Assembly: GCF_017357865.1 (NCBI RefSeq)
Contig: NZ_CP060096.1
Span: 1,785,001 to 1,849,000, forward strand
Reading direction: 5' to 3'
Source: Aceticella autotrophica
Lineage (GTDB): Bacteria; Bacillota; Thermoanaerobacteria; Thermoanaerobacterales; Thermoanaerobacteraceae
DNA length: 64,000 nucleotides
Under the pieces are notes generated by a model. The model was given only the letters and a program-made list of their open reading frames with translations, was not told the DNA's origin and did not search any database. The stretch's first letter is position 1, and every line of letters begins with the position of its first letter. Shown here piece by piece: positions 39,106 through 53,154 of the stretch. The position numbers were made by a program, and so were the translations under genes.

Positions 39106-39276
39106 TCAAACATTATAACAAATCTTAAATCTTTTACTTATACAGCCTTCTGAATCATAAACACTTACAACTGCGGTACATTTTTTAATCTTAATTTCAC
39201 AGTTGCAATCCCTGCAAAAAAACAGGTTATTACCTATTTTGCCCACGTTTGTGCTCTTACAATTAGGGCATTCCAT
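39106..39276 (-). CDS. Small zinc-ribbon protein
   Basis: 56 aa from ATG at 39276 behind GAGGTGAGG: MECPNCKSTNVGKIGNN, FCRDCNCEIK, then a basic and aromatic tail. Four Cys in CPNC/CRDC make a zinc ribbon. Function unknown. The DNA directly before it is the 3' end of a P-type ATPase gene (39298-39351), so it may once have been co-transcribed with it. Confidence 0.65.
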   Translation of the reverse strand: MECPNCKSTNVGKIGNNLFFCRDCNCEIKIKKCTAVVSVYDSEGCISKRFKICYNV

Positions 39277-39297
39277 ATACCTCACCTCTCTACCTTG

Positions 39298-39351
39298 CGG
39301 CTTTAAACCTCTAAGCCTCAAGGCATTCGAAACTACTGATACAGAGCTTAA
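39298..39351 (-). pseudogene. 3' remnant of a copper-type P-type ATPase gene
   Basis: Eighteen codons read LSSVSVVSNALRLRGLKP, the last membrane helix and tail typical of CopA (..MALSSVSVVSNALRLRRFKP in many Firmicutes). Nothing further upstream on this strand resembles the ATPase, so only the 3' tip of the gene is left. Short, but this motif is very specific. Confidence 0.6.
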
Positions 39352-39611: not shown

Positions 39612-40175
39612 TTACTCCTTTGTACAAATAATCTCTCTCAGCTTTTTTATTGCTCTATTTTTGAGTTTTACAATGCTCTGATAATGTAAACCCATTTCTT
39701 TAGCAATATCAGCCATTGAAATTCTTTCAAAATAGTGTAATAATATGATTTTTTTCTGCTTTTCTGTTAATTTTCCAAATGCAGTTTTTAATTCACTTTT
39801 AAGTATATTATTTATTATGGTTTCTTCTATTGAAAGTCCTTCATTTTTTATCAAATCTATCATTTCTGTCTCACTATCATCAGTTGATTTTTCATTTAAG
39901 GACAAGGCATTTATCCTGCATCTTGCTTTATTTCTATAAAAAAATCTTAGCTGGATATTTACATATCCTAAAAAATCCCTCCCTTTTTCTGGGTCAAATT
40001 CTTTTATACATTCCATTATTCTGACCCTTCCGTCTTGAAGCATATCGTTAAAATCATCATAAGGAAATTTATTGGCAAGTGATATCAATAATGGATTTAA
40101 TCTTTTTATTATCTCTTCTACACTTCCTTTATCTCCCTTCTTTGCATTAAAGCACAGTTCATTAAAACCAATCAT
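39612..40175 (-). CDS. Orphan sigma-70 family RNA polymerase sigma factor
   Basis: 187 aa. Region 2 spans about 25-90: DDFNDMLQDGRVRIMECIKEFDPEKG and FLGYVNIQLRFFYRN. Region 4 spans about 130-185: KLTEKQKKIILLHYFERISMADIAKEMGLH, followed by the recognition helix QSIVKLKNRAIKKLRE. No anti-sigma gene is adjacent. The layout recalls the small BotR/UviA/TcdR-like or ECF-like sigma factors of Clostridia. The ribosome site is buried in a hairpin (see 40184-40226), which suggests translational control. Target genes unknown. Confidence 0.85.
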   Translation of the reverse strand: MIGFNELCFNAKKGDKGSVEEIIKRLNPLLISLANKFPYDDFNDMLQDGRVRIMECIKEFDPEKGRDFLGYVNIQLRFFYRNKARCRINALSLNEKSTDDSETEMIDLIKNEGLSIEETIINNILKSELKTAFGKLTEKQKKIILLHYFERISMADIAKEMGLHYQSIVKLKNRAIKKLREIICTKE

Positions 40176-40183
40176 AGCTTACA

Positions 40184-40226
40184 CCTCACGTTATAGTGAG
40201 GACCGGTCCTTTTCAGTGCGGCACTG
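40184..40226 (-). promoter_or_regulatory. Triple-palindrome leader sequestering the sigma-factor ribosome site
   Basis: In transcript order: CAGTGC-C-GCACTG (40214-40226), GGACCGGTCC (40200-40209) and CCTCAC-6 nt-GTGAGG (40184-40201), all perfect. The last right arm GTGAGG is the Shine-Dalgarno of the sigma gene, 9 nt before its ATG, so folding should block initiation. The middle palindrome shares two bases with the last, making alternative structures possible. Could also be DNA operators. Confidence 0.65.
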
Positions 40227-40397
40227 TACTTTAATTTTATACGGAGATATTCTTTATGTTAAATCATGAGTTAATCTTATTCTTCCAACAAATAATGCTG
40301 AATTATATTAATTCACGATTATTTTCTCTAAAGATTTAAAAATTCAGATATTGACTATTATAAAATACCAATATATTTTCCCTTTTAACATAAATGC

Positions 40398-52835: not shown

Positions 52836-53129
52836 TTACTTTTCATTATTGTTTTTTTTCTCTATCTCATCAAGCCTTTTATTGATAAGGTCAAGCTGTT
52901 CCTTCAGGTATTGAGCCTCAGCATTTAAAGCATCTTCATCATTTGCAGCATAAGCAGCTCTGCCCCAGCCCGGAATACCTGTTGCATAATACATATTTCT
53001 ATATCCTCTCCGCATACCAAAACCTGCTCTGTTCGCATAGCCTGGAACATTATATCCTGAACAGTAACCCATACCTCTTCCTGTTCTCGGTCCCATACCC
53101 ATTGGACCTGTACCATTTCCTCTTGGCAT
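52836..53129 (-). CDS. DUF5320 family protein
   Basis: 97 aa from ATG at 53129 (AAAGGAG). Opens MPRGNGTGPMGMGPRTGRGMG, Gly/Met/Arg-rich, and ends with a helix LKEQLDLINKRLDEIEKK, the DUF5320 layout. These proteins commonly travel with NifX/MinD clusters in anaerobes. Function unknown. Own promoter and a palindromic operator upstream. Confidence 0.85.
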   Translation of the reverse strand: MPRGNGTGPMGMGPRTGRGMGYCSGYNVPGYANRAGFGMRRGYRNMYYATGIPGWGRAAYAANDEDALNAEAQYLKEQLDLINKRLDEIEKKNNNEK

Positions 53130-53154
53130 AATGATCACTCCTTTGCATTTATTT

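Follow-up and report, generated by a model that had tools for sequence, protein, structure and literature searches.

What are three perfect inverted repeats doing directly in front of the start codon of a sigma factor gene? The locus lies in a 64,000-nucleotide stretch of the Aceticella autotrophica genome (contig NZ_CP060096.1, positions 1,785,001 to 1,849,000), which is called the window here; coordinates are window positions, and the features of the locus are all on the minus strand. An earlier note on this DNA had described an orphan sigma factor whose ribosome site is held in a hairpin. That description is supported by the sequence, where the product has regions 2 and 4 and the putative hairpin encloses the Shine-Dalgarno (SD) sequence.

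The sigma gene and its leader

The gene (39612..40175) encodes a sigma-70 family factor of 187 amino acids in which regions 2 and 4, and only these, are found. Pfam matches to Sigma70_r2, Sigma70_r4 and Sigma70_r4_2 are above cut-off and TIGR02937 matches at 4e-22. The upstream neighbour is a small exported protein with no Pfam match, separated from the sigma gene by its own terminator-like stem (40430-40398). Downstream lie a small cysteine-rich, zinc-ribbon-like open reading frame (CPNC...CRDC, 39106-39321) and then murB, and the claim that no anti-sigma factor is adjacent thus holds in the window. Toxin or bacteriocin genes were not seen near the window sigma gene, nor were DUF1659-like or DUF2922-like genes found there; a ComK-like protein is the neighbour of the sigma gene in several other families of orthologs. 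Elsewhere in the window, a small Gly/Met/Arg-rich protein (52836-53138, minus strand) has the perfect 14-bp palindrome TGGTCATATGACCA about 23 nt ahead of its start, and this site upstream of 53138 is possibly an operator.

The leader of the sigma gene reads AAAGTACAGTGCCGCACTGAAAAGGACCGGTCCTCACTATAACGTGAGGTGTAAGCT-ATG. The three perfect palindromes are found exactly as the earlier note had placed them, spanning 43 bp. The first, P1, is a hairpin at the predicted 5' end (CAGTGC-C-GCACTG, 40214..40226). The second, P2, has the core GGACCGGTCC (40209-40200), which the next pair extends to AGGACCGGTCCT (40210-40199). The third, H3, is a hairpin whose loop has 6 nt (CCTCAC-TATAAC-GTGAGG, 40184..40201), in which CCTCAC pairs with the GTGAGG of the ribosome site as had been read from the sequence. 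Most of the SD (GAGGTG, 40182..40187) sits in the 3' arm of H3, and the ATG (40175-40173) follows 6 nt later. The 5' half of P2 (AGGAC) is itself SD-like, while its 3' half is common to the anti-SD arm CCTCAC; in the window leader P2 and H3 have two bases in common. P2 could therefore act as an alternative partner of the anti-SD arm.

A consensus scan predicts a sigma-A-like promoter, TTAACA-17-TAAAAT (40234..40262), which would place the transcript start at about 40227, ahead of all three repeats. A start downstream of the palindromes, the outcome that the earlier note took to count against its proposal, is not indicated by this prediction, and all three repeats would be transcribed. P1, at the 5' end, probably protects or insulates the leader.

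Conservation in close relatives and control genes

Are the repeats more than a chance occurrence? Single-sequence folding of the window leader is unremarkable (z = -1.4), so the significance of the leader comes from comparison and not from the fold of one sequence. All nine genomes searched from a second genus in the same bacterial family have a sigma ortholog (52-59% identity); a third genus of the family was searched and yielded no ortholog. The sigma proteins of the window and the second genus are 53-59% identical, yet their 59-nt leaders match at 83-88% (four genomes), the opposite pattern to control genes compared alike (proteins 70-91%, leaders 47-78%). The contrast appears when the window's own genus is included; within the second genus only, conservation of the sigma leader is unexceptional. 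The loop base of P1 varies and so does the H3 loop, whose length runs from 4 to 6 nt within family f1, while the stems stay constant. One ortholog of the second genus (G001; L005 / L048:7286-7852) has an in-frame stop in its sigma gene and a G.U pair in its H3.

The combination of elements is also specific to this gene. A hairpin in the SD zone occurs in 13 of 284 genes from the window and related loci; 11 of them also have an adjoining palindrome that enters the anti-SD arm, and all 11 are orthologs of the window sigma gene. Of 44 orthologs, 27 have a GC-rich palindrome in the P2 zone; among 407 control leaders, which were inspected, the number is 5. From these sequence comparisons, the three inverted repeats are not a product of chance. 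The leader core occurs in one copy per genome, by which a repeated or mobile element was rejected. The sequence TTAAAGCACAGTGC was tried as a regulon motif and gave many scattered near-matches with no clear regulon.

The same layout in distant families

A scan of genome contigs with the window protein returned one distant match only, and profile searches added about 40 further orthologs, most of another class. Many of the distant orthologs, in ten further families, keep the layout in different letters: a P2 of 10-18 nt whose 3' half overlaps the anti-SD arm, followed by H3. P2 is found in eleven families, in forms that include GGACCGGTCC, GGGCCGGCCC, AGGCCGGCCT, GGGTCGACCC, GAGCCGGCTC, GGGTGCACCC and AAAGAGCGCTCTTT, and ten of these families also have H3, with arms such as CCTCAC/GTGAGG, CCTGTTA/TAACAGG, CCTCATCA/TGATGAGG, GTCCTC/GAGGAT, GCCCTC/GAGGGC, CACCCT/AGGGTG and GCTCT/GGAGC. 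Neither element is seen in f3, f178, f82 and several single orthologs. In the protein tree every leader type falls in one clade, with long branches between families.

The overlap between the 3' half of P2 and the anti-SD arm of H3 amounts to 3-7 nt and is present in all ten families with H3; the two folds are therefore mutually exclusive. The suggestion that the middle palindrome offers an alternative fold is borne out by this overlap. One ortholog, L136, has a long P2 and no H3. A counterpart of P1 occurs in most families, with variable size and spacing.

Covariation of P2 and H3

Compensatory changes are found in both P2 and H3, with the pairing conserved and covarying across families, so that a lack of conserved pairing, which would have weakened the original proposal, is not what the relatives present. 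Among 30 distinct P2 sequences, two-sided compensatory changes affect 6 of 6 pairs and 97.8% of the compared cells pair. The covariation score is 0.584, against 0.272 when shuffled and at most 0.205 in slid registers. When P2 arms are swapped between families, in-register pairing drops from 5.55 to 3.79 of 6, and swapping H3 arms changes the energy from -10.0 to -6.9 kcal/mol, with 0 of 3000 exchanges as good in either case. Pairing served both to locate the arms and, later, as the property under test, which favours the natural set, and the exchange evens this bias only in part. Slid registers and control genes served as checks on it. The SD side of H3 is constrained in any case. Within family f184, L161 and its tree neighbour L133 differ by matched changes in P2 and H3 together.

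Could P2, and P1 with it, instead be DNA operators for a dimeric regulator bound just 3' of the promoter, with H3 a separate translational lock? Both palindromes are symmetric through their centres, and the symmetry takes in bases that an ordinary RNA hairpin could not pair. At the centre of P2 the two bases are CG in 10 of the 11 families and the next pair covaries; symmetry through the centre is not needed for an ordinary hairpin. One RNA explanation of this feature is a two-base loop closed by the covarying next pair, for which the CUUG tetraloop offers a comparison; the alternative would be a DNA operator or an RNA dimer. Operators fit poorly with the rest of the comparison: the letters of P2 differ between families while the symmetry is kept, the P1-P2 distance ranges from 13 to 29 nt, P2 overlaps an H3 arm in every family with H3, and the length of the H3 loop is variable even within f1. 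Furthermore, the non-Watson-Crick P2 pairs within five pairs of the centre are all G.U (3 of 3). The operator explanation is for these reasons rated as distinctly improbable.

A proposed translational switch

The reading preferred here is that the 5' leader of about 50 nt is a cis-acting translational switch, in which H3 is the sequestor and P2 a mutually exclusive anti-sequestor; judged from sequence comparison, this is probable, if by no means certain. By default, CCTCAC would pair with GTGAGG and H3 would cover the ribosome site, with a predicted energy of about -8 kcal/mol at 37 C, so that little sigma factor would be made even with the gene transcribed. P2 would emerge earlier in transcription and is the weaker of the two; if it formed, either first during transcription or stabilised by some factor, the SD arm would be left unpaired and the ribosome site freed. 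H3 would thus lower translation and P2 would open the lock.

With standard parameters, P2 is predicted to be far less stable than H3 in 32 of 33 leaders, and the switch therefore needs a helper or kinetics. The symmetry of P2 through its centre, the P2 of L136 without H3 and the orthologs with neither element also count against the switch. The same imbalance, together with the fact that no trigger was found, speaks for a fixed hairpin that simply keeps sigma synthesis low, with P2 a by-product of an SD-like tract lying beside an anti-SD tract. However, the inner pairs of P2 covary although they lie outside any SD-like tract, and L136 retains its long P2 with no H3. A fixed down-tuning hairpin is accordingly considered unlikely, although it is the strongest of the competing explanations.

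Heat could also be imagined to open the lock. The messenger RNA of rpoH (sigma-32) is a thermometer in which structure involving a long coding segment hides the start and opens with heat, and the window leader resembles it as a sigma-factor message with a hidden start and an SD placed in a short hairpin. Unlike rpoH, no melting is predicted for the present leader: at 60 C the SD arm is still predicted to be 97% paired within the 5' UTR, little opening is predicted up to 70 C in most relatives, and the SD would thus stay closed over the growth range. Melting of H3 would also leave P2 unexplained, and a thermometer appears very improbable.

The earlier note had seen in the leader the layout of an RNA thermometer, a riboswitch or an antisense-controlled message. 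A plain thermometer is disfavoured by the predicted stability of the hairpin. Mutually exclusive elements placed like the sequestor and anti-sequestor of a riboswitch are present. Neither an antisense RNA nor a known aptamer turned up for the leader, and the P1-P2 spacer is not conserved across families. A search of Rfam with the leader gave no family match and a literature search found no description of it, in agreement with the proposal of an undescribed control system. The leader looks like a real, undescribed on/off control of the sigma factor.

A further contact may involve the coding sequence. In nearly all of f1, a 12-nt complement links a strand at 40223..40234 with codons 5-10 (40147..40158), where the codons CTG TGC TTT are identical in 8 of 8 orthologs compared. 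With G.U allowed, about 20% of resampled genes give a complement of 12 nt from the amino-acid sequence alone, and part of the 5' strand would be lost if transcription began near 40227. The long-range helix is thus weakly supported and suggestive only.

Possible links to DNA damage and competence

When would such a sigma factor be needed? A LexA-type box with 0-1 mismatch is located at the sigma promoter in the second genus and in f3, and perfect LexA boxes precede the sigma gene in L154, L158, L165 and L167. The window's genome and the second genus have a similar box at their lexA genes. The window sigma gene has no LexA box, its best site within 300 nt having 3 mismatches. LexA binding was rejected as an explanation of the palindromes: the box, where there is one, sits upstream of the repeats, and the window gene lacks it.

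Near the sigma gene of f101, f184, f162 and f170 is a gene with a perfect LexA box whose product is weakly similar to ComK; 6 of 10 members of this ComK-like family match Pfam ComK, the best at 2.6e-7. Elsewhere in the genome, a ComK-like gene is found in f2, f3, the second genus and the window's genome; in f3 and the second genus it is under a LexA-type box. In the window's genome the frame of this gene (L176, G000:C1:778454-778988) looks interrupted (two frames, a stop); a transposase-like open reading frame lies beside it and the LexA-type site GAACATACGTTT before it.

Several other neighbours recur. An XRE-type HTH regulator with perfect LexA boxes lies near the sigma gene in L152, L153, L155, L160, L163, L164 and L165 (mostly f178). 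In several families, small DUF1659-like and DUF2922-like genes lie downstream of the sigma gene (L131, L132, L133, L142, L146 and L149; Pfam-confirmed for L132 and L133); a literature search on DUF1659/DUF2922 operons found none. A pair resembling Ku and a LigD-type ligase, recognised by eye, lies few genes from the sigma gene in the second genus (L045-L052), which fits a DNA-damage setting.

Because of the LexA boxes and ComK-like neighbours in relatives, a link of the sigma gene to DNA damage, perhaps to competence, is plausible from sequence. The likely setting of the switch would then be a rare damage- or competence-linked programme that is silent by default.

Relation to known systems and significance

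The closest precedent is the sigH leader of Staphylococcus aureus, where expression is blocked post-transcriptionally by an inverted repeat of 13 bases ahead of the start; deletion of half of the repeat activates all cells, and translational silencing was shown (PMC3486894). There too, an orphan secondary sigma factor has an inverted repeat before the start codon that covers the ribosome site, an arrangement that sequence and prediction also place in the window leader. The likeness drawn here is one of leader architecture. The sigH leader has a single repeat and no described alternative hairpin, whereas the present leader combines mutually exclusive P2 and H3 that covary over many families.

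Clostridial sigma factors of the UviA/TcdR type, which control toxin or bacteriocin genes and are carried on mobile elements (PMC4885068), are likewise short, two-domain and without an adjacent anti-sigma factor, a likeness in description. A study on the type I toxin mRNA aapA1 describes metastable competing hairpins that control translation (PMC6733600). Competing mRNA hairpins are a feature shared with the present leader, but aapA1 is part of a toxin-antitoxin system, of which none was seen at the window locus. The present leader would belong to a known kind, the sigH-type translational lock on a sigma-factor mRNA; new are the alternative hairpin that overlaps the lock and the breadth of the covariation.

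So far, locked sigma-factor messages are known from isolated examples like S. aureus sigH, and leaders that covary over many bacterial families would show translational silencing of orphan sigma factors to be a general strategy. The P2/H3 overlap provides a directly testable switch. More tentatively, and with the odds rather against it, this may be a widespread and undescribed translational switch RNA of Clostridia-type bacteria, holding a damage- and competence-linked sigma factor silent by default and opened via P2 through co-transcriptional folding, a ligand or a protein. The ComK-like protein and the LexA boxes in relatives hint where to seek the control of DNA uptake and of the damage response, of which little is known in these bacteria. 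If true, the switch RNA, together with an SOS-controlled ComK-like protein, would form one piece of the competence control still missing for Clostridia-type bacteria.
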